NCBI GenBank assembly: GCA_007136585.1
Contig: SLGR01000029.1
Coordinates: 1-14,874, forward strand
DNA length: 14,874 nt
Reading direction: 5' to 3'
Source: Candidatus Sumerlaeota bacterium
GTDB lineage: Bacteria; CG03; SLGR01
Position 1 is the first letter of the stretch. The number at the start of each line of letters is the position of its first letter. Below are positions 1-14,874 of the stretch, in pieces. The translations under genes were made by a program, and so were the position numbers. A model generated the notes under the pieces. That model did not search any database and had not been told where the DNA came from. It was given only the letters and a program-made list of their open reading frames with translations.

Positions 1-498
1 AGTTATATCCGAAAGACCCCTGCAAGCCCTCATACCCATGCCGCGTACCACGCCTGCCGGGGTTGTTATCTTAACGGGGTCATCCGTTATAAAAACCTCC
101 TCTGAAGGGAGCCAGGTCAGATCGGATGTGTCAATCCGCCTGGAACCCGAAACTATTATAACCTCTCCGCCGGCAAATATCTCCCCCGAACCCCTCCTGT
201 AGAGCCCCTTATCCGCCCGGAGTTCGGTCCTCTCCTCCTCCAATCCTTCCTCCTCATCGTAAAAAAATACCCTCACCCCGGAGCCTTTCACCTTATCTGG
301 GTCCAGGAACTCGGCTGTATCGGCCGAGAGCCTCCAGAGAACCCTTTCCCCTTCGGTCTCCGTCATCTCAAACCCTGATATAACCCTGCCGGGTTCCTCC
401 TCATTTTCATCCGCGGAGTAAAACCCCAGGTCGCTAAGACCGCACCCGGCGAAGAATAATAATACCGGCAGGAGCTTCAGGAAGGGCTTCTTTTCCAT
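1..498 (-). CDS. lptC: LptC-like LPS export protein (partial, C-terminus off the left edge)
   Basis: This reads open from an ATG at 498 to the window edge (166 codons). LptC links the inner-membrane LptBFG transporter to periplasmic LptA and passes LPS across the periplasm. The first 19 residues are a short basic stretch, a hydrophobic run and the box FFAGC, with Cys19 as a candidate lipidation site. The mature part has the family pattern: a repeated-strand fold with W-x-L-x-A-D-x-A near residue 60, an R-R-I-D-T-x-x-L-x-W block, then V-x-I-T-T-P and V-x-G-x-G-M near the end. The start lies 22 bases inside the end of the acyltransferase gene, in another frame, which suggests coupled translation. 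Most proteobacterial LptC proteins use a transmembrane helix rather than a lipid anchor, so the lipobox is a departure. Family identity is fairly sure; lipidation is inferred from the motif only. lptA and lptB would be expected further left. Confidence 0.8.
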   Translation of the reverse strand, partial: MEKKPFLKLLPVLLFFAGCGLSDLGFYSADENEEEPGRVISGFEMTETEGERVLWRLSADTAEFLDPDKVKGSGVRVFFYDEEEGLEEERTELRADKGLYRRGSGEIFAGGEVIIVSGSRRIDTSDLTWLPSEEVFITDDPVKITTPAGVVRGMGMRACRGLSDIT

Positions 499-1373
499 CT
501 TCGGTGCATCCATACCCATTGGTCAGGGTGTTTCCTTATAAAATCCTCTATTATCCGGGTATGCCGGGCCGTATCCGTTACGGGATCACCGGTTTTTTCT
601 ACAGGATCCATTACCACGACCCTGTGAGTAAGGTCTTTCCTGCGGTAAATAAACCCGGGCAGAACGACGGTTCCCTTAAGCCTTGAGAACTGGGCGCATG
701 CTGTAGGAGTATAGGCCGGGCGGGAAAAAAAATCCACAAAAACGCCGCCGACCTTAGTATCCTGGTCAATAAGTATCCCCAGTATCTCCTTCCTTCTCAT
801 AGCTGCGATCATCTTTTTAGTATTGGCCCTTCCCTTCCTGTAAATAGTACTGACACCCCGCCCTGACCTTATTCCTACCAGTATGCGGTTGAGAAAACTG
901 TCCGATATCCTCCGGGCCACAACATTTACCCTGAACCCGGCCATTACCAGGAAGGCACCCATCAGCTCCCAGTTCCCCACGTGGGCCGTAAGATATATAA
1001 CACCTTTCTTACCGGCGTATTCAGAGAGTATATCCCTACCCTGAAATGAAACCCTTTTTTTCCAGAACTCCGCGCTTCGGAAGTTCAGAAGAGCAAACTC
1101 CGCAAGGTTCATCCCGAGGTTCCTGAAAGACCGGTTCCTTATCTCAAGTACCCGGGCGGGGGAAAGCTCCGGCATTGCGCGGGTTATATTCTCTTTAGCC
1201 CTCCTTGCGTACCCCCCCGAAAGAAAACATCCCGCAAGACCCAGCAGCCCCCCCAGCTTCAGCGAAACCATATAAGGGGCCGGTACAACAACCGCGAGGA
1301 ACCCCAGAAGAAATACCGCCAGTAAAAGGTGTCTTAGGACCTTAACAGGCCTGGTTTTCAGGAAACCTTTCAA
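477..1373 (-). CDS. LpxL/HtrB-type lipid A acyltransferase
   Basis: This is a 298-aa member of the lysophospholipid/lipid A acyltransferase family, which adds a secondary acyl chain to Kdo-lipid A at the inner face of the cytoplasmic membrane. An N-terminal hydrophobic segment (about residues 14-50) anchors it. The catalytic HxxxxE motif is seen as H131-VGNW-E136. Later family blocks are D-Q-D in the substrate region and W-V-W-M-H-R-R-W near the C-terminus. I chose a TTG start at 1373: a strong AAAGGAG at 1382-1388 lies 8 bases upstream, and this places the gene 13 bases after the kdsC stop. A longer frame from a GTG at 1439 would overlap kdsC by 53 bases and add 22 residues with no family character. 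Which position is acylated cannot be told from sequence. A second, distinct family member lies at 13366-14763. Confidence 0.87.
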   Translation of the reverse strand: MKGFLKTRPVKVLRHLLLAVFLLGFLAVVVPAPYMVSLKLGGLLGLAGCFLSGGYARRAKENITRAMPELSPARVLEIRNRSFRNLGMNLAEFALLNFRSAEFWKKRVSFQGRDILSEYAGKKGVIYLTAHVGNWELMGAFLVMAGFRVNVVARRISDSFLNRILVGIRSGRGVSTIYRKGRANTKKMIAAMRRKEILGILIDQDTKVGGVFVDFFSRPAYTPTACAQFSRLKGTVVLPGFIYRRKDLTHRVVVMDPVEKTGDPVTDTARHTRIIEDFIRKHPDQWVWMHRRWKRSPS

Positions 1374-1381
1374 ACCGGAGT

Positions 1382-1388
1382 CTCCTTT
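1382..1388 (-). promoter_or_regulatory. Shine-Dalgarno site that sets the acyltransferase start
   Basis: The minus strand reads AAAGGAG here, overlapping the TAA stop of kdsC by two bases and 8 bases upstream of a TTG codon at 1373-1371. This is the best ribosome site in the region. It argues for the TTG start over the GTG at 1439, which has no comparable site and lies inside kdsC. Confidence 0.7.
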
Positions 1389-1953
1389 ACTTCCGCCGCG
1401 GCCGGAGTTCTCCCGCGGTCCTGTATTCCTCCACAACACCTTCCCAGAGGCCGAGCGATTCCAGCAGCACCTCGGCCACCTGGCGCACAGCCCCCCTGCC
1501 CCCGGGAAAATCGCTTACGAAATCAGCTGAATCCATAACCTCCCTGACAGCGTCCGAAGGGGCGCACCCTACCCCGGCATACTCCATACACCTCAGGTCC
1601 ACCAGGTCATCCCCTATATAAAGTGCCTCGGAAGAACCGAGCCCTGCTTCCGAGAGAAGCGATTTCATAAGGGTAAACTTATCGCTGACGCCGTGGTAGG
1701 CTCCGTGGACCCCGAGTTCACGGGCCCTTTCTTCCAACTCCTGGGAGGGGCGCCCGGATATCCAGAATACTTTCACCCCCCTTGAGATAAGCGCCTTTAT
1801 CCCCAGCCGGTCCCTTACGTGCCATACCTTGGGCGATTCGCCTTTTATGAATATTGCGCTCCCGTCCGTCAGGACCCCGTCAACATCCATAAAGACAGCC
1901 TTTACGGCTGTAAACCGGGTTCTAAGCGTCGGGGTAAGGCTCTGTCCTTTCAC
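1387..1953 (-). CDS. kdsC: 3-deoxy-D-manno-octulosonate-8-phosphate phosphatase KdsC
   Basis: KdsC removes the phosphate from Kdo-8-phosphate to give free Kdo, in the cytoplasm. It is a small HAD-family phosphatase without a large cap; the 188 residues match the family. The nucleophile motif is D23-V-D25-G-V-L-T-D-G, motif II is I-S-G-R, the motif III lysine is K92 in D-K-F, and motif IV is G-D-D (114-116) followed by D119. The start is a GTG whose last bases form the TGA stop of kdsD (GTGA overlap), with GAGG 7 bases upstream. It sits between kdsD and the acyltransferase, as expected for a Kdo operon. Confidence 0.93.
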   Translation of the reverse strand: MKGQSLTPTLRTRFTAVKAVFMDVDGVLTDGSAIFIKGESPKVWHVRDRLGIKALISRGVKVFWISGRPSQELEERARELGVHGAYHGVSDKFTLMKSLLSEAGLGSSEALYIGDDLVDLRCMEYAGVGCAPSDAVREVMDSADFVSDFPGGRGAVRQVAEVLLESLGLWEGVVEEYRTAGELRPRRK

Positions 1954-2909
1954 AACCCCGCCTCTATTATATCCCGTTCGTCAACTATCCCCACGGGTCG
2001 GCCGCTGCTGTCAATAACAGGGAGGTTGTCAAAGCTGTTCTTCCTAAGGATATCCTTGGCTTCCACCGCGGGGCATTCCGGGGTGAGGGTAACAGGGTCT
2101 TTTGTCATTACCTCTTCTATTTTCCTTGTAAGCAGCTCTTCATCTTCCTGGATATGCCGGCGCAGGTCACCGTCTGTAAAGTACCCGACAAGAACCCCCG
2201 ATGAATCCACTATTGAAGCGGCCCCCGATCTTGCGCTTGTCATTACAAGAAGAGCCTCCTTCACACTCCGCCCTTTCTCCAGAACGGGGTTTACTTTTTT
2301 CCTTGCCGCCAGGTCTCCCGCCCTGAGAAGAAGACGCCTCCCAAGTGTACCCCCCGGGTGCCGGGAGGCAAAATCCTCCGGCCTGAACCCTCTCCTCTCA
2401 AGAAGAGCCAGGGCCAGCGCGTCACCCACGGCCAGCATCGCGGTAGTTGAGGTGGTCGGGGCCAGATTGAAAGGACAGGCCTCCTTTTCTATATCTATCA
2501 GGATAACGGCGTCGCTTCCCGAGGCCAGGGGAGAGTCCTTATCCCCCGTTATCGCTATGATTTTCGCTCCTATATTGCTGACCGCGGAGAGGAAAACATC
2601 AATCCCCCCGGTCTTTCCGCTGAAAGAAAGCGCTACAACGACATCATCCCCGGTAAGAACACCTATATCTCCGTGAAGACTCTCGGCTGCATGAAGAAAA
2701 AAAGCGGGGGTTCCGGTGGATGAGAGGGTAGCTGCTATCTTGCGTCCGACAAGTCCGGATTTTCCCATTCCAGCGACAGCGACCTTCCCGGAAGACGAGA
2801 GTATCACCTCGACAGCCCTGCTGAACCCCTCTCCAAGAAGCCCGGCAAGGCGCTCAAGAGCGGCAGCCTCCTGCCTGAGGACGCGGCGACCGGTATCGGA
2901 GCTGTTCAC
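1950..2909 (-). CDS. kdsD: Arabinose 5-phosphate isomerase KdsD (SIS domain plus CBS pair)
   Basis: KdsD converts ribulose 5-phosphate to arabinose 5-phosphate, the sugar that KdsA condenses with PEP. The protein has an SIS sugar-isomerase domain (about 1-185), with G-M-G-K-S-G, A-E-S-L-H-G-D, S-F-S-G-K-T, the P-T-T-S-T-T block and R-H-P-G-G, followed by two CBS domains (about 190-319). The family's catalytic Lys, Glu and His positions appear kept. I place the start at GTG 2909, giving 319 aa, close to the usual length of about 320-328. GAGG at 2918-2921 lies 8 bases upstream. A frame from 3023 would add 38 residues without family similarity, and that stretch instead encodes the small zinc-ribbon protein in another frame. 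The GTG overlaps that gene's TGA. Confidence 0.93.
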   Translation of the reverse strand: MNSSDTGRRVLRQEAAALERLAGLLGEGFSRAVEVILSSSGKVAVAGMGKSGLVGRKIAATLSSTGTPAFFLHAAESLHGDIGVLTGDDVVVALSFSGKTGGIDVFLSAVSNIGAKIIAITGDKDSPLASGSDAVILIDIEKEACPFNLAPTTSTTAMLAVGDALALALLERRGFRPEDFASRHPGGTLGRRLLLRAGDLAARKKVNPVLEKGRSVKEALLVMTSARSGAASIVDSSGVLVGYFTDGDLRRHIQEDEELLTRKIEEVMTKDPVTLTPECPAVEAKDILRKNSFDNLPVIDSSGRPVGIVDERDIIEAGL

Positions 2910-3079
2910 AGAACCGACCTCACCGCAAGGTAAAATACCGCAAGAAAGGCGTATGCCGCCCCCAGAACCTGCAGTATCCACCGGAGAGAGGGGTTCCAGA
3001 AACCCGGCAGGGGCCGGCGGCACCTGGCGCAGTACACGCTTTCTTTCTTATTCCCGGCTTTACATTTTGGACATTTCAT
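2906..3079 (-). CDS. 57-aa zinc-ribbon, single-span membrane protein of unknown function
   Basis: This small gene fills the gap between kdsA and kdsD. The ATG at 3079 has GAGGAG at 3087-3092, 7 bases upstream and inside the kdsA coding sequence. The frame overlaps the last 20 bases of kdsA, and its TGA overlaps the GTG of kdsD. The protein starts M-K-C-P-K-C and has a second pair C-A-R-C at 17-20, so Cys3, 6, 17 and 20 form a plausible zinc ribbon. A hydrophobic helix follows (about residues 34-53) and ends with a basic residue and S-V-L. The ribosome site, both overlaps, the four spaced cysteines and the clean membrane span all argue for a real gene. I do not recognise a named family; many short zinc-ribbon proteins exist. 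Its place in the Kdo operon suggests a role at the inner membrane linked to LPS synthesis, but that is inference. Confidence 0.75.
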   Translation of the reverse strand: MKCPKCKAGNKKESVYCARCRRPLPGFWNPSLRWILQVLGAAYAFLAVFYLAVRSVL

Positions 3080-3854
3080 CTACAAACTCCTCAAACATAT
3101 TAAAATCCATCTGGGTTGAGCGGTCGCTCAGGGCATCAACGGGGCGTGGATGAACCTCGCAGAAAAACCCGTCGGCCCCTGCGGCGGCCGCCGCCTTTGA
3201 AATAGGGATAATAAACTCCCTGCTCCCGCCTGTCTCTCCTGAAGATCCGGCGGGAGACTGCTGTGAATGGGTAGCGTCAAATATAACCGGAAACCCGGAT
3301 TTTTTCATTATGACCACGGACCTCATATCAACCACAAGATCAGAGTACCCGAAAGATGTTCCCCTCTCGGTGAAAATAACCCCGGAGGCTCCCGTTTCAA
3401 GCGCCTTGCGCCCCTGGCGCTCCATTGAGTAAGGGCTCAGGAACTGGCCTTTCTTTATATTTACCGGAAGCAGAGTCCTTCCGGCTGCCTCTATAAGCGG
3501 GGTCTGGCGGCATAGAAAGGCCGGGATCTGGAGACAGTCAGCCACCCGGGAAGCGGCTTCGGCCTCTTCACGGCAGTGTATATCGCATATAACGGGAAGC
3601 CCGTATTTTTCCTTTACCATACGTATGAGCTTCAGCCCCTCTTCAATCCCGGGACCGCGGAAAGACTCACCGGAACTCCTGTTGGCCTTCTCATAAGAGA
3701 GTTTAAGTATAACCTTAACCCCCCGAGATGCCAGCGAGGAAAGAAACCCCGCCGTCTCATCCACCAGGGCGGGGGATTCCATTACGCACGGACCGGCTAT
3801 AAAAACCGGCCTCCCCGCACCTACTTCAAGGCCTCCGACACTTACACTGCTCAC
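3060..3854 (-). CDS. kdsA: 3-deoxy-D-manno-octulosonate 8-phosphate synthase KdsA, metal-dependent type
   Basis: KdsA condenses PEP with arabinose 5-phosphate to make Kdo-8-phosphate. It is a TIM-barrel enzyme of the DAHP-synthase superfamily. Visible blocks are F-I-A-G-P-C23, the K-A-N-R-S-S signature, A-F-L-C-R-Q-T, V-N-I-K-K-G-Q-F, R-G-T-S-F-G-Y, F-D-A-T-H-S and E-V-H-P-R-P, then A-L-S-D-R. Cys23 in G-P-C stands where metal-dependent (class II, Aquifex-like) enzymes have Cys and the metal-free E. coli type has Asn, so a divalent-metal enzyme is expected. I start it at GTG 3854, whose bases overlap the pyrG TGA; GGGAG lies 8 bases upstream. This gives 264 aa, a normal class II length. A longer frame from 3968 would run 118 bases into pyrG. 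Confidence 0.95.
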   Translation of the reverse strand: MSSVSVGGLEVGAGRPVFIAGPCVMESPALVDETAGFLSSLASRGVKVILKLSYEKANRSSGESFRGPGIEEGLKLIRMVKEKYGLPVICDIHCREEAEAASRVADCLQIPAFLCRQTPLIEAAGRTLLPVNIKKGQFLSPYSMERQGRKALETGASGVIFTERGTSFGYSDLVVDMRSVVIMKKSGFPVIFDATHSQQSPAGSSGETGGSREFIIPISKAAAAAGADGFFCEVHPRPVDALSDRSTQMDFNMFEEFVDEMSKM

Positions 3855-5386
3855 AAGTTTTTCTCCCTGCTGTAATCCGCGCAGGCGGAAACAAACCCCA
3901 GAAACAGCCTCTCCGGCGAAGTGGGGCGCGAAGTATACTCCGGGTGGAACTGGCAGGAGAGAAACCACCTTCTCCCCTTAAGCTCTATTATCTCCGTCAG
4001 ACCGTCAGAACGATCAACCCCGGTAACCTCCACTCCTTTCCGGGACCAGGAATTCAGAACTTTTTCATCAACTCTCAGGCGGCGCCGGCGGCGCGGGGCG
4101 GCCATAGGGGCAGCGTAGGATTTTGCAGCAAGGGATCCTTTCTTAACTCTGACAGTGAGAGATCCTCTGCCGGAGGAGGTATCTAACCGGAAGGGGAGCT
4201 TCTTTTTCATAACGTTTGAACCGAACTCATCCAGCATGGTCTTAAACCCCAGGCATATACCGAAAAACGGTTTATCGGTTTCCCGGCATATCCTCACGGC
4301 CCCGGACCTGTTCTTACCCGTCCTTCCCCCGCTCTCCCCCGCGATTATAAGACCGTCAAGACCCGGGATAACCTCTTCGGGGTTTTTATTATCAAGATCT
4401 ATGAATACGGGATCAACCATGACCCCCAGAGCGCTCTGGGCGTGTTTAAGAGCTTCGCTGATACTGAGGCAGGAATCACCTGCTCCTGCGCACTCCCCTG
4501 ATATTCCCACCCTGACCGGGGAGGAAGCTCCGAGCATCCCCTGAAGCATATCCTCCCAGCTTTTCATATCCGCCCGGCGCCTCCTCATTGAAAGGAGCCT
4601 GAAAAGCTTGGTATCCACCCCCTGGCGGCGAAGGTGAACGGGGACCTCGTAAACGGTGGCTTTTACATCTCTCTGGTGTATAACGTGATCCTTCCTGACA
4701 TTACAGAAAAGGCTTATCTTTTGCCGGGCCTCCGGGGAAAGCGGTCTGGGAGACCTTGTCATTACCATATCCGGCTGGATACCTATCTCCCGCAGTTTGG
4801 CCACGCTCTGCTGGGTAGGTTTAGTCTTAACCTCCCCGGCGGAATCCACATAGGGGAGAAGCGTCAGGTGTATATACGCGGCGCGATCCCTTCCCACGTC
4901 GGTCCTTATCTGACGTATGGCCTCAAGGAAAGGCAGGCTTTCTATATCTCCCACGGTCCCCCCTATCTCAACTATTACCACATCGCTGCGCCGGGAAAAA
5001 GAGAGAATCCTGGATTTTATTTCGTCGGTAATATGAGGGATCACCTGAACGGTATGCCCCCCGTACCCGCCGCGCCGCTCCCTCGCTATGACGCTGGAGT
5101 ATATCCTGCCCGAGGTGAGGCTGCTTTCCCCGGTCATATCCCGTCCGAGAAACCTTTCATAGTGTCCCAGGTCAAGGTCGGCCTCCGCCCCGTCCGACGT
5201 AACAAAGACCTCCCCGTGCTCAAACGGGTCCATTCTTCCGGGGTCAACGTTTAAGTAAGGGTCCATCTTTATAAGGTTTACCCGGAGCCCGCACCTTGAG
5301 AGGACGCAACCTATTGATGCCGAGGTTATCCCTTTCCCGAGGGACGATACAACCCCCCCCGTTATAAATATATACCTGGTATTCAA
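3851..5386 (-). CDS. pyrG: CTP synthase PyrG with an altered glutaminase domain
   Basis: PyrG makes CTP from UTP, ATP and nitrogen from glutamine or ammonia; KdsB, encoded next to it, spends CTP on Kdo. The synthetase half (about 1-270) is well kept: G-G-V-V-S-S-L-G-K-G-I, D-P-Y-L-N-V-D-P-G, H-G-E-V-F-V-T, D-L-D-L-G-H-Y-E-R-F and G-G-T-V-G-D-I-E-S. One change there is T-Q-Q-S-V (Gln193) where the family has T-Q-H-S-V. The glutaminase half keeps its triad Cys378, His481 and Glu483, but the P-G-G-F-G motif is A-G-E-S-G, the Gln after G-I-C-L-G-x is Lys382, and the loop that normally holds S-x-E-F is missing, about 20-25 residues. The H-R-H-R-Y-E block is mostly arginine. At 511 aa it is short for the family (about 535-545). 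The start is a TTG overlapping the kdsB stop, with AAGGAGG 10 bases upstream. Confidence 0.92.
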   Translation of the reverse strand: MNTRYIFITGGVVSSLGKGITSASIGCVLSRCGLRVNLIKMDPYLNVDPGRMDPFEHGEVFVTSDGAEADLDLGHYERFLGRDMTGESSLTSGRIYSSVIARERRGGYGGHTVQVIPHITDEIKSRILSFSRRSDVVIVEIGGTVGDIESLPFLEAIRQIRTDVGRDRAAYIHLTLLPYVDSAGEVKTKPTQQSVAKLREIGIQPDMVMTRSPRPLSPEARQKISLFCNVRKDHVIHQRDVKATVYEVPVHLRRQGVDTKLFRLLSMRRRRADMKSWEDMLQGMLGASSPVRVGISGECAGAGDSCLSISEALKHAQSALGVMVDPVFIDLDNKNPEEVIPGLDGLIIAGESGGRTGKNRSGAVRICRETDKPFFGICLGFKTMLDEFGSNVMKKKLPFRLDTSSGRGSLTVRVKKGSLAAKSYAAPMAAPRRRRRLRVDEKVLNSWSRKGVEVTGVDRSDGLTEIIELKGRRWFLSCQFHPEYTSRPTSPERLFLGFVSACADYSREKNL

Positions 5387-6111
5387 ACCCGGCGGCCCTC
5401 CTTCTCAAAAATACCTCTTACTCTCTCAAGATCTTCCGGGGTATCCACACCAGGGGAATCCGAGGAGGATAAAAAAACCCTTATCCGCATCCCGTTCTCC
5501 AGGGCTCTCAGCTGCTCAAGGCGTTCGGATTTCTCCGCCTCGGTGGGCTCAAGAGAATGAAACCTCTCAAGGGACTTGCGGCGCCAGACATAAACCCCCT
5601 GGTGGATCAGGTACCGGGAAGCCCCGTACGGGACAGGGCTTCTTGAGAAATAAAGGGCGTAACCTTTCCGGTCTAAAACCGCCTTTACGGCTGAAGAACT
5701 CTGAGCCCTTTCCGGATCCGCCCTGAAAGAGGCCGTAAAAACATCAGCAGGCTCGTCCCCGAGGGCCGCTTCAACAAGCCTGTCAACAAAGACCGTATCC
5801 ATAAGAGGCTCATCCCCCTGAAGGTTCACTACCACCCCGGCTGTGGAAGAAAGCTTCCGGAGGGCGTAAAGAACCCTGTCTGAACCGGAAGCAAGGGTTT
5901 CCGGGGTCATTACCGTCTCGGCTCCGGCGGCAGCCGCTGCTGCGGCGACCTCCTCCGAATCGGCTGCAACTACAACCCTCCCGGCTCTTCTCATTTTAAC
6001 GGCGTTCTTATAGACCCTGGCTATGAGCGGTTCCCCGCATATATCCGCAAGAGGTTTGGCCGGTATTCTTGCTGATCCCAGGCGGGCCGGGATTACCGTA
6101 AGTACCGTCAA
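5383..6111 (-). CDS. kdsB: CMP-Kdo synthetase KdsB
   Basis: KdsB (3-deoxy-manno-octulosonate cytidylyltransferase) joins Kdo to CMP from CTP, giving the donor used by the Kdo transferase. It is a Rossmann-like nucleotidyltransferase of normal length (242 aa). The N-terminal nucleotide loop is I-P-A-R-L-G-S-x-R-x-P-x-K-P-L. The metal-binding N-L-Q-G-D100-E-P-L and G-V-D223-T-P-E-D-L motifs are both present, as are H-Q-G-V-Y near residue 170 and E-Q-L-R-A-L-E-N-G near 200. The start is TTG, overlapping the TGA of the heptose kinase (TTGA), with GGAG 8 bases upstream. It is followed directly by pyrG, an arrangement that puts CTP supply and CTP use in one transcript. Confidence 0.95.
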   Translation of the reverse strand: MTVLTVIPARLGSARIPAKPLADICGEPLIARVYKNAVKMRRAGRVVVAADSEEVAAAAAAAGAETVMTPETLASGSDRVLYALRKLSSTAGVVVNLQGDEPLMDTVFVDRLVEAALGDEPADVFTASFRADPERAQSSSAVKAVLDRKGYALYFSRSPVPYGASRYLIHQGVYVWRRKSLERFHSLEPTEAEKSERLEQLRALENGMRIRVFLSSSDSPGVDTPEDLERVRGIFEKEGRRV

Positions 6112-7091
6112 ACCCTTCTCTCCATTTCCGCTATAAGTTCATTTTGGGTGACCGTAGCCGTTCCCAGTTTACCTACAACCACAGCAGCGGCGAAGTTTGC
6201 AAGATGAGCAGCCTCCGAGAACCCCAGCCCTCCGGAAAGAGCCAGTGTAAAAACCCCGGATACCGTATCTCCTGCCCCTGTGACATCATAGACCTCCCGG
6301 GCCACTGTAGGTATATGTTCCACCCTGCCGTCACTGTAAAAGAGGCTCATCCCCTCCTCCCCTCTTGTTATGAGAATTGTACGGCTCTCAAGCTCTGAGA
6401 GAAGACGGCGCCCGGCTTCAAGAAGCGATTCCTCGCCTGTTATCTCAACTCCAAGGGCCGCGCCGGCCTCCGCGGTATTTGGAGTAAGAGAAGTGACCCT
6501 GCGGTAATCAAAAAAATGTCCCACCTGAGGGTCCACCACTACAGGAAGCTTCCGGGATTCAGCCTCCGATATAAGAGCCGAGATCAGGGCGGATGAGAGA
6601 AGACCTTTACCGTAATCTGATATCACAACCCCGTCGCATTTTTCAACCAGTGTGGAGGATTTACTAATAAGCCGTTCTGTCAGCCGGTCGGAGAGCTCTG
6701 ACCTGGATTCCCAATCGGCCCTTACGACCTGCTGGTGCTCGGCTATTATGCGGGTCTTGAGACTTGTAGGGCGGTCCCGGTCAAGTATTATCCCGCCGGT
6801 ATCGGCTCCTGTTGAACGGAGGATCTTAAGAAGCTCCCTCCCGGGAAGATCAGAGCCCACGGCGCTTACCAGGGATATCGCCCCTCCAAGACTCATTATA
6901 TTCGCGGCGACGTTTCCGGCCCCGCCCGGCATATACTCCTCTTTTGTCACCTCTACAACAGGGACCGGAGCCTCGGGAGAGATGCGGCGCACCCTGCCGG
7001 TGACGAACCTGTCCATAATAAGGTCCCCAACCACCAGAATACGCTTTCCTGCGAATCCTCTAACAGCATCAATTAGCTTCATTGTTTCCAT
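6108..7091 (-). CDS. hldA: D-glycero-beta-D-manno-heptose-7-phosphate kinase (HldA / HldE kinase domain)
   Basis: This PfkB-family sugar kinase phosphorylates heptose 7-phosphate at C1 on the way to ADP-heptose. Seen motifs are G-D-L-I-M-D near residue 22, R-I-S-P-E-A-P-V-P-V typical of the RfaE branch, G-G-A-G-N-V-A-A-N near 56-64, S-D-Y-G-K-G near 158, T-P-N-T-x-E near 203, and D-V-T-G-A-G-D-T with the catalytic base Asp275. At 327 aa it is only the kinase domain; the nucleotidyltransferase half found in bifunctional HldE is absent and must be encoded elsewhere. It is the first gene of the operon. An ATG at 7091 and another at 7082 are both possible starts; neither has a strong ribosome site, though GGAA sits just before the second. 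Its product is the substrate of GmhB, which is encoded at 13366-14763. Confidence 0.9.
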   Translation of the reverse strand: METMKLIDAVRGFAGKRILVVGDLIMDRFVTGRVRRISPEAPVPVVEVTKEEYMPGGAGNVAANIMSLGGAISLVSAVGSDLPGRELLKILRSTGADTGGIILDRDRPTSLKTRIIAEHQQVVRADWESRSELSDRLTERLISKSSTLVEKCDGVVISDYGKGLLSSALISALISEAESRKLPVVVDPQVGHFFDYRRVTSLTPNTAEAGAALGVEITGEESLLEAGRRLLSELESRTILITRGEEGMSLFYSDGRVEHIPTVAREVYDVTGAGDTVSGVFTLALSGGLGFSEAAHLANFAAAVVVGKLGTATVTQNELIAEMERRV

Positions 7092-7152
7092 AGCTTGATT
7101 TAAATTTTCTACAGGACCGGCCTAAAAGCTTCCCGAGCGTTAAATTAGAGGA

Positions 7153-7181
7153 ATTATAAATTATAAGGGAGTAAATTGCAA
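7153..7181 (-). promoter_or_regulatory. Sigma-70-like promoter of the Kdo/heptose operon
   Basis: On the minus strand TTGCAA (7181-7176) is followed after exactly 17 bases by a perfect TATAAT (7158-7153). A second TATAAT lies at 7165-7160 but has no -35 partner. Transcription would begin near 7146, leaving a leader of about 55 bases before hldA. No other convincing promoter was seen inside the nine-gene run. Confidence 0.65.
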
Positions 7182-7200
7182 ATCGGCGTATTTGCATTTT
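7173..7200. promoter_or_regulatory. Inverted repeat between the divergent promoters
   Basis: The arms AAATTGCAAAT (7173-7183) and ATTTGCATTTT (7190-7200) pair at 10 of 11 positions around a 6-base CGGCGT centre. Each arm contains the -35 hexamer of the promoter that points away from it. This could be an operator that controls both directions, or simply two similar promoters placed back to back. Confidence 0.45.
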
Positions 7201-7220
7201 TAGAAGGAATAACTTAGTAT
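7192..7220 (+). promoter_or_regulatory. Candidate promoter of the outer-membrane gene pair
   Basis: TTGCAT (7192-7197) and TAGTAT (7215-7220) are separated by 17 bases. The match to consensus is weaker (3/6 and 4/6) than for the opposing promoter. A nearby TATATT at 7218-7223 is a better -10 alone but has poor spacing. Transcription would begin near 7227, leaving a leader of roughly 95 bases. Confidence 0.4.
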
Positions 7221-7226
7221 ATTTAA

Positions 7227-7322
7227 GTGAAAAACCGGCGCGGAGAGGTGTATTAAATTCAAAAATGCTTCACCTGCGGCGGTTTCACCGGAATAAAAAA
7301 CAAAAGGGACCTTTTACTTTAT
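7227..7322 (+). other. Untranslated leader of the outer-membrane gene pair, with a possible stem-loop
   Basis: Together with the promoters this completes the only non-coding gap near 230 bases in the window. AAACCG (7232-7237) can pair with CGGTTT (7280-7285), and inside it AGGTG (7246-7250) with CACCT (7271-7275), around an imperfect middle and a 20-base loop. The ribosome site before the ATG at 7323 is poor: the nearest purine run, AAAGGGA, lies about 14 bases upstream. A structured leader is possible but weakly supported, and no known riboswitch pattern was recognised. Confidence 0.25.
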
Positions 7323-8243
7323 ATGAAAGCTTTATTAACCAAGATAACAGCGGTTTCCGCTGCCATACCGGTTTTCCTGTGCGGGATTTCCCTTGCGGGA
7401 GGGGCCGGCAGCTCTTCACTCTACTCTATGACCCAGCCTCCATCAGCCAGGTCATCGGCTCTTTCCGGAGCCTGCACGGCCCTTTCCGGAAGTCTTTCCC
7501 TTATGCAGTATAATCCGGCATCTCTCCTTGGAATCCCCGGCTTCTCTATCTCCACATCCTACCAGGCTATCGGGACACGGGAATACCATACCACGGCGAT
7601 GGCGGGGTTCGGGTTTGAAAACTCCGCCGTTGGAGTGGGGATAAAGTATTACGACACCGGAACCATAAGCATATATGACTCCTACGGGTATGAGGTATCG
7701 GGCAGGGGGCAGAGAGATATGATCTTTATGCTCGGGAGCGCTCAGGATTTTGAGTTTATTACAGCCGGGCTGAACCTGAAAATGTTTTTCTCGGAAATAT
7801 TCGGGGAATCCGCTTTCGGGTTTGCCGGGGACGCAGGATGTCTTTTCCCCCTCTCGCAAGGCCTGGACGCAGGGTTTTCCATACAGAACTTCGGCACCCC
7901 GGCCAAATATATTGAAAGGAAAGAGTCCCTCCCCCTTATAATTCGCGGGGCCCTGGCCTACTCCTCAAGTCTCGGGGAAAATGATTATACGGTCTCACTT
8001 GATCTTCCGTACTATGTAAATGAGAACCATTTCTTCATAAAGACAGGGGTGGAGTTCCAGGTACACGAGCTTCTGACCCTTATGGCGGGAGGGGTGCTAA
8101 CCCCCGGAAGCGGTAATGATACGGACAGGAAACTCAGCGCCGGGTGGAGTTTCGGTTCGGAGTCACTGCGTATAGTATACTCAGTTAACCTTGCATCCGA
8201 TCTTGATTCTCCGCAGCATGTGTCTACGGAGCTGAGATTCTAA
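7323..8243 (+). CDS. PorV/PorQ-like (UPF0164 family) outer-membrane beta-barrel protein
   Basis: This 306-aa exported protein starts with a basic, then hydrophobic signal peptide, probably cut near residue 26. The mature start has the family signature: A-R-S-S-A-L-S-G-A-C-T-A-L followed by Y-N-P-A-S-L, the same layout as the A-R-x-x-x-M-G-G-A and N-P-A-x-L blocks of PorV, PorQ and UPF0164 proteins. The rest is alternating polar/hydrophobic strands rich in Gly and aromatic residues, and the chain ends E-L-R-F, with the C-terminal Phe typical of barrels assembled by the BAM machinery. PorV-type barrels serve as shuttles in type IX secretion or have unknown roles in other phyla; no other type IX gene is seen here. 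The TAA stop shares one base with the ATG of the next gene. Confidence 0.7.
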   Translation: MKALLTKITAVSAAIPVFLCGISLAGGAGSSSLYSMTQPPSARSSALSGACTALSGSLSLMQYNPASLLGIPGFSISTSYQAIGTREYHTTAMAGFGFENSAVGVGIKYYDTGTISIYDSYGYEVSGRGQRDMIFMLGSAQDFEFITAGLNLKMFFSEIFGESAFGFAGDAGCLFPLSQGLDAGFSIQNFGTPAKYIERKESLPLIIRGALAYSSSLGENDYTVSLDLPYYVNENHFFIKTGVEFQVHELLTLMAGGVLTPGSGNDTDRKLSAGWSFGSESLRIVYSVNLASDLDSPQHVSTELRF

Positions 8244-10039
8244 TGAGCTTAAAAATGAAATTTACTGTTCTTTTTGCGACCGGAGTTGTTTTTCTTTCCA
8301 CTCTTACAGCAAACTCAGTGGCTGCTGAGGTTCCGGGGATTTTCAGTATGAGCCCCGGAGCTGCCGCTCTTACCGGCCTCTACCCGAGAAATGACAGGCA
8401 GGAAAACCTTTTACTCAACCCCGCGGCCACTTCAGATATCCGGCGGAGGGAGTTTACCTTCGGAACAGGTCTGCACACCGGGTTTAACAACTGGTTTTTC
8501 GGATATGCCCATCCTACCGAAATGGGCGCCCTCTCTGCAAGGGCATCTTATCTTACGGACCGCTCCGAAGACAACACCTACCTTTTTACCGCAGCGCTGG
8601 GGTACGGACTGCCCATATACCAGGATCTCAACCAGACAGGAAGCGCCGGGCTCAGCCTGAAAACCGTCGGGGAAAAACACTCCGGAGAAGACAAGCTCCT
8701 TTTTCTCTCCGACGCGGGGTTTATCCATTCCATTTACGGAGATTGGGATATAGGGATAGCTTTTAAAAACATTGGAAACTCCCGCGGAGTGGGGGAACGG
8801 CTCACGCACTCGCCCATGACCTTCCAGGTGCTCCTTAGAAGGGAGCTCCATGACGTATACCTGAGCCTGGATGACGCTCTTACAGAAATAAACTTTGCCG
8901 TTGCCGCAGAATCACGCCACCGCAGTTCATCGCTCTTAAAACTGGGCCTGGAATCCAGGTTCCGCAATACTTATATCAGGACCGGGTGCAAGGTTGATAT
9001 GGGAGGGGATAACTGGCTTGGAGTGGGGATTGGAACCAGGTACAGGGACATCGCAATAAATTATACTGTGCTTATGGCAAACGAAATCACCCCCTCGCAT
9101 TTTATCTCAACGGATTTCCGGTTCGGGGAAGTACTGGAGCCGGAAAGACTCCAGGAGCCCGAGATAGAAAGATTCTACAGGCTCGGAATGAACGAATATT
9201 ACCAGGGAAACCTGGCCAGAGCCCAGGAGTATTTCCACAAGGTTGAGCAGATAAGGTATGACCACAGGGAAACCAGGGAGTACCTGGAAGAGATATCCAG
9301 GGCCATAGCCCTTGTCCGCCAGCGCCAGCCCAAGGAAGATGAGGTAACGGGTATTTCCGAACTTCTGGAAAGGGCCGAGAGGCTCTTTGAAGACGGCAAT
9401 TACGGATCTGCACTTCAGCATTACTCGGCAGTTTTAATGGTCGACAGGGAGAACGAGAAAGCCCAGTCCAGGATATCCGAGATAAACCAGATCCTTGCCG
9501 AACAGGAAGAGAGAGAAAGAGAACTGGCCAGGCAGAGGAGAAGAGCCGCCATAGTTCGGCAGCTGGAGGATTATTACAGCCGCGGACAGAACAGCTACGG
9601 CCGCGGGAATTTCTCCGCCGCGCTGGAAACATACGAAGAAGGGATCACATACGCCCGGAGAAACAATATGCCGGCCTGGGTAAGAAGGTTTGAGACCGCC
9701 TCGCAGGAGGCCCGGGAAAAGATCGCTGAAGAACATTTTCTCCAGGGACACCAGTACTACCAGAGAAACCTTTTTACGGAAGCACTCCGGGAGTTTGAAA
9801 AAGCCGTGGAATACGATCCGGATAAAGATGCGGCAAAAAGAAGAATAACCGAGATCAGATCCAGGATGCGCAGGGAAGATGAACAGGAAGCCGAAAAGCT
9901 TTATAACCAGGGGCTTGAAGCCTACAGTGCCGGAGATTATTCCGCGGCTGCGGAGTACTGGACCGAGGCCCTTGAACTTAACCCCGACCTTATAGAGGCC
10001 CAGAAGGCCCTTGAAAGGTTACGGGCCCGGGACAGATAG
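8243..10039 (+). CDS. Outer-membrane barrel protein with five C-terminal TPR repeats
   Basis: This is a 598-aa two-part protein. A signal peptide (cleavage likely after A-A at residue 28) leads into a PorV-like barrel, about residues 29-294, with N-P-A-A-T near 59-63 and a barrel-closing end S-T-D-F-R-F at 289-294. After a short linker come five TPR units at about 308-341, 374-407, 443-472, 494-527 and 549-582, recognised by patterns such as G-D-Y-S-A-A-A-E-Y-W and A-L-E-L-N-P-D. A highly charged Glu/Arg helix (about 407-440) lies between the second and third. The TPR part should hang in the periplasm and bind partners there. Start and stop overlap (TAATG) couples it to the preceding barrel gene, so the two probably work together. 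The function is not recognised; a scaffold for envelope assembly or secretion is a guess. Confidence 0.7.
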   Translation: MSLKMKFTVLFATGVVFLSTLTANSVAAEVPGIFSMSPGAAALTGLYPRNDRQENLLLNPAATSDIRRREFTFGTGLHTGFNNWFFGYAHPTEMGALSARASYLTDRSEDNTYLFTAALGYGLPIYQDLNQTGSAGLSLKTVGEKHSGEDKLLFLSDAGFIHSIYGDWDIGIAFKNIGNSRGVGERLTHSPMTFQVLLRRELHDVYLSLDDALTEINFAVAAESRHRSSSLLKLGLESRFRNTYIRTGCKVDMGGDNWLGVGIGTRYRDIAINYTVLMANEITPSHFISTDFRFGEVLEPERLQEPEIERFYRLGMNEYYQGNLARAQEYFHKVEQIRYDHRETREYLEEISRAIALVRQRQPKEDEVTGISELLERAERLFEDGNYGSALQHYSAVLMVDRENEKAQSRISEINQILAEQEERERELARQRRRAAIVRQLEDYYSRGQNSYGRGNFSAALETYEEGITYARRNNMPAWVRRFETASQEAREKIAEEHFLQGHQYYQRNLFTEALREFEKAVEYDPDKDAAKRRITEIRSRMRREDEQEAEKLYNQGLEAYSAGDYSAAAEYWTEALELNPDLIEAQKALERLRARDR

Positions 10040-10048
10040 AAATATTTT

Positions 10049-10471
10049 TTAGTTCAGGGTATACCTGAAACGTCTCGTTCTTCCCTGAATAACGATAAAA
10101 TTCGGGTTGACAGAAACAATCCTGTTATCACCCACAAACTCATTTATGCCGTAGGTCCGGTCGTTTATTATGGCATAAAGACGCCCGTTCTCGCGCATCA
10201 CCCCCTGGAACCTTAGTGGAGGCCTGTACTCTGCCGGGGGCTCCCCCGCAAGGAGGCTCTTCTGCTTAATATAATCCTCATCTTCAGAATCTCTAAAGTA
10301 AGCCGGGAAATCATCCTCACTCTCTTCAACCTCAATATCAAACTCGCTTAAGAAACGCTGGTATAAGCCGGTGGACTGTATATACTCCAGGGCATCGGTC
10401 ACAAGACGAGGTCTGGCAGATATATATATTAAGCCCCATAGAAACAGGGCAAGAATTATAAGTTTTCTCAT
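10049..10471 (-). CDS. Small membrane-anchored protein with a GspB/PilP-like C-terminal domain
   Basis: This 140-aa protein has an N-terminal hydrophobic helix (about residues 3-18) with a short basic start, so it is probably anchored in the inner membrane with its body in the periplasm. An acidic stretch follows (about 43-67). The last 50 residues (A-I-I-N-D-R-T-Y, G-D-N-R-I-V-S-V, F-I-V-I-Q-G, R-R-F-R-Y-T-L) have the strand pattern of the GspB and PilP/GspC-type domains, where a short peptide gives its own value and location statement ending in a ligand such as x-L-x-L. I infer this resemblance by eye. The ATG overlaps the TGA of the histidine kinase (ATGA). It converges with the TPR gene, with only 9 bases between the two stops. 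No other type II secretion or pilus gene is in view. Confidence 0.55.
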   Translation of the reverse strand: MRKLIILALFLWGLIYISARPRLVTDALEYIQSTGLYQRFLSEFDIEVEESEDDFPAYFRDSEDEDYIKQKSLLAGEPPAEYRPPLRFQGVMRENGRLYAIINDRTYGINEFVGDNRIVSVNPNFIVIQGRTRRFRYTLN

Positions 10472-11544
10472 CCGCTGTCACCCTCCGGAACGGGGAGTCT
10501 TATCTCAAAAACCGCCCCGCCGGTTTCACTGTTTGAAGCGCTTATAATCCCGCCGAAGCTCTCAACAATATGTTTTACTACTGAGGTTCCTAGGCCTATA
10601 CCCTTGGGATTAGAGGAGTAAAGCGGCTCAAAAACGTTCTTTAGAGCCTCCGGGGTCAGACCGGGACCGGTATCGGAAACTCTTATAAAGTAATTTTCCT
10701 CTTCGGTGAAAGCTTCCACTTTTATCGAACCGCCTTCAGGCATAGCCTGGCAGGAGTTATGGAAAATATACTCAAAAATCTGCTTAAGTCTTCCGGGGTC
10801 AAACCTTATTTTCAGGTCACCGCTCTTTTCCAAAAACTTAAGCTCTATATTATCCGGGAGGGATACCGCTTTCGCCGCGTCTTCCGCCGCCTGCCTGATA
10901 TCAAATTCTCTTATACTAAAAGTGATTTTCCTGGAAAACTCAAGGAGCTCGGTAAGTATCTTGTCAGAAACCTCAACCTCATCGGAAAGGGTCCCTATAA
11001 ACTCCTTTACATCCGGATCGTCTATCTCAACATAATTCTGCAGGTAAAAGACAGCGTTCTTTATGCTGGCAAGAGGGTTCTTGAGTTCATGCCCGACACC
11101 GGAGGAAAGCTTCTTAATTGCGGCAAACCTTTCGGCCCTGAGAAGCTCCTTCTCCGGGGCGGAGTTTCCTCCGCTCTTAAGTGAGAGCAGCTCGTGGTTT
11201 ACTTTCACGCGCTGAAGGAACTCTTCCGGGAAAAAAGGTTCAATTATAAAATCATCGGCGCCTTCGGATATCAGGTCAGAAGGGCTCTTGCCGCAGAGAG
11301 CGATTATACGGATCTGTTCGCGCGCTCCGGATTCACCCGCCTTAACGATGAATCCTTCTTTTCCGCAAGATTCTCCGGAAACCTCTACCGCAACGACCCC
11401 CGTAAACCCCCCGTCAATCATCTCAAGGGCATTACCGGTTTCCCGGACCAGGAGCACAGTGTACCCCGCCTCTTCAAGGGCCGGGGTTATCTCCCCGGCC
11501 AGCTCTCCTCTTATACCTGCTACAAGTACTTCTCTGCCGCTCAT
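10468..11544 (-). CDS. Soluble hybrid histidine kinase with a degenerate N-terminal receiver domain
   Basis: The protein is 358 aa with no membrane segment. Residues 1-120 have a receiver-domain outline (V-L-V-A-G at the start, E-E-A-G-Y-T-V, E-G-A-D-D-F-I) but lack the functional residues: the acidic pair after strand 1 is missing, Glu54 or a neighbour stands where the phosphoacceptor Asp is expected, and the K-P motif is E-P (102-103). Residues 140-205 are the dimerisation domain with the H-box G-H152-E-L-K-N-P-L. The ATPase domain has the N-box with Asn263, G1 at D291-T-G-P-G, an F-box F-E-P-L and G2 at G-I-G-L-G (315-319). The kinase half thus looks active while the receiver looks like a pseudo-receiver. 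It starts at ATG 11544 with GGAG 7 bases upstream. No separate response regulator is seen nearby. Confidence 0.85.
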   Translation of the reverse strand: MSGREVLVAGIRGELAGEITPALEEAGYTVLLVRETGNALEMIDGGFTGVVAVEVSGESCGKEGFIVKAGESGAREQIRIIALCGKSPSDLISEGADDFIIEPFFPEEFLQRVKVNHELLSLKSGGNSAPEKELLRAERFAAIKKLSSGVGHELKNPLASIKNAVFYLQNYVEIDDPDVKEFIGTLSDEVEVSDKILTELLEFSRKITFSIREFDIRQAAEDAAKAVSLPDNIELKFLEKSGDLKIRFDPGRLKQIFEYIFHNSCQAMPEGGSIKVEAFTEEENYFIRVSDTGPGLTPEALKNVFEPLYSSNPKGIGLGTSVVKHIVESFGGIISASNSETGGAVFEIRLPVPEGDSG

Positions 11545-11594
11545 CTGAAAACTCCGTTTAATTACTGCACCGTTCTATCGTCCTATGTATAGGC

Positions 11595-11624
11595 ATTATA
11601 GTTTATAGGGCGGTTTCTTTTCAA
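11595..11624 (-). promoter_or_regulatory. Strong sigma-70-like promoter of the histidine kinase gene
   Basis: The minus strand reads TTGAAA (11624-11619), an 18-base spacer, then a perfect TATAAT (11600-11595). Transcription should begin near 11588, about 44 bases before the kinase ATG. It separates the kinase pair from the upstream lpxK cluster, although no clear terminator lies between them. Confidence 0.65.
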
Positions 11625-11649
11625 GTTTCCACCGGAGTCCCAGGAACTT

Positions 11650-12417
11650 TCACAGACCGGGGAGCTCTTTTTCTATAAGCACAGCCGAGATAGAACCTAT
11701 GGGAATGCGGCATCTCATCAGGACGGGGATACGCCTTTCGTCATCAGTAACCCATATCTTTAAACTTCCCCTGGCCTTTCTGAATATGCCGTCCTCCTCT
11801 CTTATCTCCGGAACAACTATAAGGGTATCAAACCTTCCCGCCGGTACACGTATCCTCTCCCTTCCTTCAACCGTAACCTCAAGAGGCCAGACCTCTCTGC
11901 TTGTTCCGACGTCAAAAGTGTACCTGCCTCCAACCTCCAGCTCCTTTGTACGGAGGAAGTAAAAGGAAGAAAGGACATCCTGGATATTTTCGGTAATCTC
12001 GAATCTCTCGCCGTTCTCGTATGCATACCCGCTCTCGTGGTCATAGATTATGGCAAGCTGCCTGCTGAAGTTGCCCTCGTTCAGGTCCTGCTCGTACCTA
12101 ACGGAATGCAGGTGCTGAGCATCAATGTATGACTCAACCAGATCCCGGACCTTGTAAAACGGGTCAAAGTAGGGGGCCGAACGGGCCTGTGTCACTATCC
12201 TGTACGTATCCCTGCCGTCAAGCTTGATCTTCTCCCGCACTTCCATATGGGCGTGCCCCCCGGTTATGAACCCCCATCTTACGGCAAAGGTCAGTTTCTC
12301 CCCTACTTCCCAGGGCATATTCCGGGTGCGCGCGGGGCCCCCGGCGGCCGGTGCCGCCAGTAAAAGGGAAAGTAAGAGAAAGAGAATTTTCCTATATGAC
12401 TTTTCTGATATACTCAT
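11650..12417 (-). CDS. Exported DUF3108 family protein
   Basis: This 255-aa protein begins with a basic N-terminus and a leucine-rich hydrophobic run (about 10-22) that ends A-A-P-A-A-G, a signal peptide. The mature part fits the DUF3108 family: W-x-V-G-E-K-L-T-F near the start, G-x-A-x-M-E-V, an R-D-L-V-E-S-Y-I-D stretch, D-V-L-S-S-F-Y-F-L-R, then V-P-A-G-R-F-D-T, I-W-V-T-D-D-E-R-R-I-P-V-L-M and a final I-G-S-I-S-A-V-L. The family is periplasmic and of unknown function. I chose ATG 12417 because AAAGGA lies 6 bases upstream (12424-12429); an ATG at 12432 lacks such a site. The start overlaps the end of lpxK by 26 bases, so it is probably co-translated with it, which hints at a role in LPS or envelope building. 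Confidence 0.8.
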   Translation of the reverse strand: MSISEKSYRKILFLLLSLLLAAPAAGGPARTRNMPWEVGEKLTFAVRWGFITGGHAHMEVREKIKLDGRDTYRIVTQARSAPYFDPFYKVRDLVESYIDAQHLHSVRYEQDLNEGNFSRQLAIIYDHESGYAYENGERFEITENIQDVLSSFYFLRTKELEVGGRYTFDVGTSREVWPLEVTVEGRERIRVPAGRFDTLIVVPEIREEDGIFRKARGSLKIWVTDDERRIPVLMRCRIPIGSISAVLIEKELPGL

Positions 12418-13369
12418 AGAATTTCCTTTCATCGGAAATAACAGTTTCCATCCGCAGGAATAAACCGTCTATCCCAGACGAGAAAGGTATCCTTGCCGCA
12501 TCCTTCTCGGTAGTTACCGGGATACACCCTTTTTCTCTGGCCTTTCGGGTTATCCTCTTCAGTTCGGAAACGCTCCACCCGTGGTGATCCCGCCTTATCA
12601 CCTCATCCTCAAGGAGAGCCCCTGAGCTGATAAGAAGCCTCCGGAAAGCCTCAGGTCTTCCTATCCCGCTGAAAGAGAGCGTCTTCTTCCCCTTAAGGTA
12701 ATCCGGGGGGTACACGGTATCAGAGTGTATTTTACCGTATCCCGACATCTTTTCGGAGGCCTCAAAAAACAACGGTTCCGGCTTATAATTACTAACAGTA
12801 TGGCGGATTTTTTTCAACTCTCCGGTAGAAACGCTGTCGGCGCGGTTCAATACAAAGCAGTCGGCCCGGGAAAGAGCAGTCAGGGGTTCCCTGAGCCTTC
12901 CCCGCGGAAGAAGTTTCTTCCCCCCGAAAGGGGCTCCGCAGTCAATTACAAGTATATTTATATCTTTTCTTACTTCCAGACTCTGAAACCCGTCATCCAG
13001 TATAACAGCCTCCGCACCGGCTTTCGCGGCGGCGATAACCCCCTTGTAGCGGTTCCCGGCTACTATTACTACAGAGGACGGGTTCTTTCTCCTGTGAAGA
13101 ACGGCTTCATCTCCGTACCTTATGAAATCGTCCGACTCGGTTTCCAGCACCCCCCTGCTTTTTCTCCGGTAACCCCTAAGGACAATAGCCGTCTTAACTT
13201 CCAGACCGGCCGCTATCTTTGCCGCAAGCGGGGTCTTGCCGGAACCCCCGGCGGTTATATTACCCACGCTTATGACAGGGAGCGGGGGTTTCCTGGGGCG
13301 GGAAAGAACCTTGTGTATAAAAGCCCCCGCCGCGTAAAAGACCGAGAGTATGTTAAGGAGTATCTTCAC
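12392..13369 (-). CDS. lpxK: Tetraacyldisaccharide 4'-kinase LpxK
   Basis: LpxK phosphorylates the 4' position of the tetraacyl disaccharide to make lipid IVA, at the inner membrane. The N-terminus has a short hydrophobic anchor (about 4-20), then P-V-I-S-V-G-N-I-T-A-G-G-S-G-K-T-P with the P-loop at 36-46. Other family motifs are L-R-G-Y-R-R-K-S near 64-71, G-D-E, L-D125-D-G-F-Q, L-L-P-x-G-x-L-R-E-P, S-G-I-G-R-P and the D-H-H block near 260. Its 325 residues are normal. The GTG start overlaps the stop of the acyltransferase-GmhB gene (GTGA). Its 3' end overlaps the DUF3108 gene. Confidence 0.95.
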   Translation of the reverse strand: MKILLNILSVFYAAGAFIHKVLSRPRKPPLPVISVGNITAGGSGKTPLAAKIAAGLEVKTAIVLRGYRRKSRGVLETESDDFIRYGDEAVLHRRKNPSSVVIVAGNRYKGVIAAAKAGAEAVILDDGFQSLEVRKDINILVIDCGAPFGGKKLLPRGRLREPLTALSRADCFVLNRADSVSTGELKKIRHTVSNYKPEPLFFEASEKMSGYGKIHSDTVYPPDYLKGKKTLSFSGIGRPEAFRRLLISSGALLEDEVIRRDHHGWSVSELKRITRKAREKGCIPVTTEKDAARIPFSSGIDGLFLRMETVISDERKFYEYIRKVI

Positions 13370-14763: not shown

Positions 14764-14769
14764 CTTAAC

Positions 14770-14874
14770 TTACGCCTGCTCTCCCTCCCTGAGCATTATC
14801 AGGCGCCTGGACCACCTGCTTGACTTTATCTTTACGATAAGCCCGGCAAGTATCCAGATAAGGATGGAGTTAGG
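14770..14874 (-). CDS. C-terminal tail of an unidentified, probably membrane, protein
   Basis: Thirty-four codons and a TAA read open from the right edge. The tail starts with a hydrophobic stretch (I-L-I-W-I-L-A-G-L-I-V) and ends with a basic then polar run (S-S-R-W-S-R-R-L, then R-E-G-E-Q-A). This fits a last membrane helix with a cytoplasmic end. The stop lies 6 bases before the next gene's GTG, so it is probably part of the same operon. I do not recognise the family; an LPS glycosyltransferase, flippase or other envelope protein would suit the context, but nothing visible tests it. Confidence 0.45.
   Translation of the reverse strand, partial: PNSILIWILAGLIVKIKSSRWSRRLIMLREGEQA

Follow-up and report, generated by a model that had tools for sequence, protein, structure and literature searches.

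A predicted zinc-finger membrane protein encoded between kdsA and kdsD in two bacterial lineages

The kdsA-kdsD junction and its small open reading frame

We analyzed a stretch of 14,874 nucleotides from a Candidatus Sumerlaeota bacterium (contig SLGR01000029.1, positions 1 to 14,874; hereafter the window), which carries a run of genes for the synthesis of Kdo, a sugar found in the outer membrane of Gram-negative bacteria. Between kdsA and kdsD lies a minus-strand open reading frame whose 57-aa product, MKCPKCKAGNKKESVYCARCRRPLPGFWNPSLRWILQVLGAAYAFLAVFYLAVRSVL, is referred to here as ZR-TM. The features of this region are as follows, with the basis of each assignment in brackets.

2906-3079, minus strand: small open reading frame ZR-TM, 57 aa, finger plus C-terminal helix (open reading frame, homologues at the same junction, purifying selection, codon usage)
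3020-3073, minus strand: predicted zinc finger C3-x2-C6-x3-N10-x6-C17-x2-C20 with RanBP2/NZF-like spacing (invariant cysteines, AlphaFold/Foldseek, Pfam)
2912-2986, minus strand: predicted C-terminal transmembrane helix, residues 32-56, with conserved L39, Y43, L46 and Y50 (prediction, alignment)
3087-3092, minus strand: GAGGAG ribosome-binding site within kdsA codons, 7 nt ahead of the ZR-TM ATG (sequence)
3060-3968, minus strand: kdsA, metal-dependent type, whose true start may fall inside the open reading frame and whose 3' end overlaps ZR-TM by 20 nt (NCBIfam)
1950-2909, minus strand: kdsD, KpsF/GutQ family, with a GTG start at 2909 overlapping the ZR-TM stop (NCBIfam, codon usage)
1387-1953, minus strand: kdsC, the operon gene next after kdsD (NCBIfam)
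3851-5386: open reading frame of pyrG, between kdsB and kdsA
5383-6111, minus strand: kdsB, upstream in the same gene run (Cytidylyltransferase match, gene order in relatives)

The layout agrees with what a sequence-only reading had proposed, namely a GAGGAG site 7 bases before the ATG, a start that overlaps kdsA and a stop that overlaps kdsD. The latter overlap is 4 nt long (GTGA), and a GGTGAGG at 2918-2924 precedes the kdsD GTG. The 20-nt overlap with kdsA recurs in G001, G003, G004, G005 and G006, as judged from match coordinates, and G-rich stretches resembling GAGGAG occupy the equivalent place in several relatives. Elsewhere in the window, a 465-aa open reading frame (13366-14763, minus strand) encodes a fusion in which an LpxL-like lipid A acyltransferase (residues 23-290) is followed by a GmhB-type heptose-bisphosphate phosphatase (294-444); the corresponding halves are adjacent in L064 (G001), L066 (G005) and L068 (G004). 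Two frames run against the operon direction on the plus strand, one whose product has no match in Pfam but on inspection looks like a PorV-type outer-membrane protein (7323-8243) and one encoding a TPR protein (8243-10039).

A short frame overlapped at both ends might have arisen by chance where kdsA overlaps a kdsD extended at its N terminus, the upstream frame of kdsD being open to 3023. Shuffling, codon usage, homologues and substitution patterns all oppose this reading. Among 300 dinucleotide-shuffled windows, none gave an open reading frame of at least 45 aa in which a double C-x-x-C preceded a membrane-grade helix, and the unshuffled window contains exactly one, ZR-TM. The ZR-TM frame has a codon score of 0.175, and true genes have a mean of 0.25 with a 5th percentile of 0.116; the wrong frames across the same stretch score -0.20 and -0.04. 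For the possible kdsD extension (3023-2910, 38 codons) the score is -0.010, which supports the earlier placement of the kdsD start at 2909; kdsD homologues mostly align from about residue 33-46 onward of the 357-aa open reading frame.

With the window sequence as the only query, G003-G006 each yielded a homologue at E 1e-11 to 1e-12, and G001 yielded a weaker match. Across 14 homologues M1, L39 and the four cysteines (3, 6, 17 and 20) are invariant, Y43 nearly so, and the asparagine at position 10 of the window protein is kept in most. Close pairs have dN/dS values of about 0.12-0.17, indicating purifying selection: 0.156 for G004/G006 (Fisher p 1e-6) and 0.12-0.15 for G386 against the rest of its genus (Fisher p 3e-4). 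The signal is weak in G008/G012 (0.24, p 0.03); the closest pairs differ by too few changes, and G082/G388 yield no ratio because dS is saturated. The expectation that relatives sharing the junction would keep the frame, its cysteines and purifying selection was mostly borne out; the junction of one genome of the window's own family (G002) lacks the frame. ZR-TM is almost certainly a genuine gene. The chance frame, to which we assign a vanishingly small probability, was rejected on the strength of a conserved frame with invariant cysteines. The case illustrates how an upstream extension of the following gene can mask overlapped small genes.

A predicted finger and a C-terminal helix

ZR-TM had been described beforehand as a zinc-ribbon protein with two C-x-x-C pairs 10 residues apart and a single membrane helix after them. 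Both pairs are present in the open reading frame, the Kyte-Doolittle maximum over 19 residues is 2.13, and the AlphaFold model (mean pLDDT 84, pTM 0.42) consists of a small finger and one helix over residues 32-56 of 57, with block pLDDT of about 88-96. Together with cysteine invariance, Foldseek matches and purifying selection, this supports the predicted architecture.

Several comparisons bear on the kind of finger. The C-x(2-4)-C-x3-N-x6-C-x2-C pattern of RanBP2/NZF domains (PF00641) is present as C3, C6, N10, C17 and C20, and Foldseek superposes the finger model on Nup153 ZnF2 (PDB 3gj3, 7mo2) at 0.7 A over 25 residues with a probability of up to 0.93; the E value of 0.58 exceeds 0.1 because the domain is tiny. 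On the other hand, ZR-TM is bacterial, is fused to a membrane helix, begins M-K-C and thus lacks the tryptophan two residues ahead of the first cysteine, and scores 18.8 bits, under the gathering cut-off of 27. The Pfam zinc-ribbon models DZR, Zn_Ribbon_1 and Zn_ribbon_3 (PF12773, PF13240, PF13248) match most family members (11-13 of 14 homologues at E 0.01 or better), but the window protein falls below their curated cut-offs and the models omit the helix. ZR-TM is also not a double ribbon, having four cysteines instead of eight and matching positions 1-23 of the 45 in the DZR profile. Weak matches to PDB profiles include ribosomal L32 and eL40. Taken together, the model and the spacing suggest a finger of RanBP2/NZF type.

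The predicted helix sits at the extreme C terminus, and the lysines and arginines of the N-terminal domain point to a cytosolic location, as in a tail-anchored protein. We are confident that ZR-TM combines a zinc finger with a tail anchor. The four best-conserved positions of the helix core (L39, Y43, L46, Y50) fall within a 60 degree arc, as do 18 of 3060 sets of four, a post hoc count; the helical moment of conservation over residues 34-56 was not significant. The copies linked to kds genes in both lineages described below share the signature P-x-W-[KR]-W ... I-Y-x-x-L-x-x-x-Y-x-x-x-R. The helix half of G003 is 50-53% identical to that of the G223 group and 16-22% identical to that of coaE-linked copies from its own phylum, with the kds-linked G001 intermediate and partly similar in appearance to the latter.

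Distribution, neighborhood and history

A family profile was run over 386 genomes spread across bacteria. Strong matches were found only in the window's phylum, G082 and G223/G353, with a weaker one in G157 (E 4e-9); three genomes (G386, G387, G388) were added from the genera of G082 and G223/G353. Names of neighbors other than kds genes were read from sequences by resemblance. The order kdsA-ZR-TM-kdsD is found in six genomes of the window's order (G000, G001, G003, G004, G005, G006) and in six of a second lineage (G082/G388 and G223/G353/G386/G387), giving 12 genomes with linked copies. In a related family of the window's phylum (f5) the gene lies between uvrB and coaE (G008, G012), between dnaE and coaE (G015) or directly before coaE (G009, and probably G010, where the copy is partial). 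Where f5 genomes carry kdsA and kdsD on one contig (G008-G012, G014), the two are adjacent with no ZR-TM between them. The same holds for the sister genus represented by G002, in which kdsA runs into kdsD and the sole match elsewhere has an E value of 0.005 in a genome that is 84% complete. Given these f5 copies and the G002 junction, the gene does not always accompany kdsA and kdsD, and its Kdo link is recurrent but not obligatory. The distant G157 copy follows uvrB and precedes kdsC, an acyltransferase gene and two genes resembling lptC and lptA.

In 80 named loci from other bacteria, among the matches listed, the 4 kb around kdsA contained no small finger-helix frame. These loci, retrieved by a KdsA-alignment scan whose patterns biased the selection, cover many phyla with none from the window's clade; Kdo synthesis as such therefore does not need ZR-TM.

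Further observations were made in these neighborhoods. In G002, kdsA ends in a different C-terminus (LKLQKKGSRQD; L083:2200-2300) at the site that lacks the finger gene, as though its loss had freed the overlap. The gene uvrB precedes the finger gene in both f5 and the distant G157 (L061:6411-7221, L062, L072:4406-6737), an unexplained second recurring neighbor. A second finger-helix protein of 75-92 aa, related to ZR-TM, is encoded immediately ahead of rpmF-plsX in six members of the order (L075:4877-5128, L073:5846-6073, L191:1501-1731, L193:1465-1743, L188, L192); it was not found in G000 and G002, both incomplete genomes. Finally, a 56-aa four-cysteine protein, Trm112/YcaR-like by resemblance, is encoded between kdsB and kdsA (L069:7797-7967, L070:7796-7966, L183:423-593), and the operons of G223/G353/G387 thus hold two tiny cysteine-rich genes. 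Like ZR-TM it is tiny, has four cysteines and belongs to a Kdo operon, but it is soluble, has another cysteine spacing and lacks the helix; its presence alongside ZR-TM marks it as a separate gene.

In a KdsA tree, the window's order groups with f5 in one supported clade (97/91). The G082/G223 group falls in another part of the tree, close to an Elusimicrobia record and G157. As the KdsA of the second lineage is not sister to that of the window, the linkage is either an old one that has persisted or one that arose repeatedly. The pattern may reflect ancient inheritance followed by losses, transfer or repeated insertion, the deep branches of the tree being too weak to separate them and the 57 residues of ZR-TM a weak basis for a tree of its own.

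Possible roles at the membrane

Our search found no literature on a zinc-ribbon protein at the kdsA-kdsD junction. Zinc-ribbon proteins with a single membrane helix are a known kind; ZR-TM is apparently a new small family among them, and its link to the Kdo operon is a recurring one.

We considered whether ZR-TM might deliver zinc to KdsA or sense zinc for it. All KdsA sequences examined in these clades carry the Cys-His-Glu-Asp metal set, with or without an adjacent finger gene, so that co-variation of metal type with the gene is uninformative. This set defines the Zn/Fe form of KdsA (PMC3052366). ZR-TM and KdsA are likely coupled in translation. Structural fingers of this type, however, hold zinc tightly, and KdsA of G002 and f5 is of the metal type without an adjacent copy. 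A metal-dependent KdsA permits a zinc-supply role but gives it no support, and we regard such a role as quite improbable.

Judging from sequence, the probable role of ZR-TM is to dock or regulate enzymes of the cell envelope at the membrane. An adaptor is the simplest reading because a basic cytosolic finger with almost no periplasmic part could hardly be an enzyme or a periplasmic sensor, and we lean slightly toward it. The lysine- and arginine-rich finger would hold one zinc and face the cytoplasm, with the helix crossing the membrane and leaving almost no periplasmic tail. By binding a cytosolic partner, the finger would retain that partner at the membrane, and the conserved face of the helix (L39, Y43, L46, Y50) could pack on itself or on another membrane protein. 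The gene overlaps would couple translation of ZR-TM to that of KdsA and KdsD, which makes the Kdo enzymes, generally regarded as soluble, the first candidates. The likeliest partners would then be the Kdo-8-phosphate enzymes or their regulator, and Kdo supply would be positioned close to lipid A assembly or adjusted to it.

The sequence-only reading had likewise suggested a small membrane partner of the Kdo enzymes. That suggestion draws its support from a location that recurs in 12 genomes of two lineages, and it is weakened by the f5 copies near coaE and by G002, which has none at the junction. A partner within the Kdo/LPS pathway is conceivable, though somewhat short of an even chance, and the full explanation, an inner-membrane finger adaptor with a tail anchor serving the Kdo-8-phosphate enzymes or their regulator, is put forward tentatively. 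Besides the shared junction, points in its favor are the helix likeness of kds-linked copies in both lineages, purifying selection, the retained 20-nt overlap, the G157 copy ahead of kdsC and envelope genes, the related protein at rpmF-plsX and the arc of conserved helix positions; the 80 loci without a finger gene, the non-significant helical moment and the low Pfam scores count against it. The f5 context and the G002 absence make a broader membrane role about as likely. ZR-TM would then be a general housekeeping finger that might, for instance, dock ribosomes or RNA, take part in membrane quality control or sense redox state or zinc, with its kds position reflecting co-expression only. The varied contexts (kdsA|kdsD, uvrB|coaE, dnaE|coaE, uvrB|kdsC) fit such a role, as do the related paralogue upstream of rpmF-plsX, the protein or RNA binding of RanBP2-type fingers in known structures and the weak resemblance to L32 and eL40; the junction kept in both lineages and a helix signature that is largely kds-specific argue against it.

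In E. coli, LapB (YciM) regulates the proteolysis of LpxC by FtsH (PMC7730581). By analogy, ZR-TM might be a minimal functional counterpart that hands an enzyme of early LPS synthesis to a protease in the membrane, both proteins combining a membrane anchor and a zinc domain in an LPS context. The LapB zinc-ribbon model matched once per genome and the two matches that were read were RadA-like, so no LapB was evident by this ribbon-model search. The likeness, however, concerns only how the two might work: LapB is a TPR array with a C-terminal rubredoxin-type ribbon, whereas ZR-TM has 57 aa, an N-terminal finger, no TPRs and no sequence match to the LapB ribbon, and its neighbors are kds genes, not lpxC or ftsH. 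We consider this role improbable.

Returning to the adaptor, a stronger and rather doubtful version would make ZR-TM a dedicated membrane receptor of the Kdo branch. Translated in a constant ratio to KdsA and KdsD, it would keep Kdo synthesis at the inner membrane and couple it to lipid A assembly, and the paralogue would serve the plsX phospholipid operon. If true, this would mean that phyla which have received little study recruit envelope precursors through an additional layer at the membrane. More generally, a conserved and probably co-translated membrane finger next to the Kdo enzymes of two distant lineages would imply that the supply of Kdo can be localized or regulated at the membrane.
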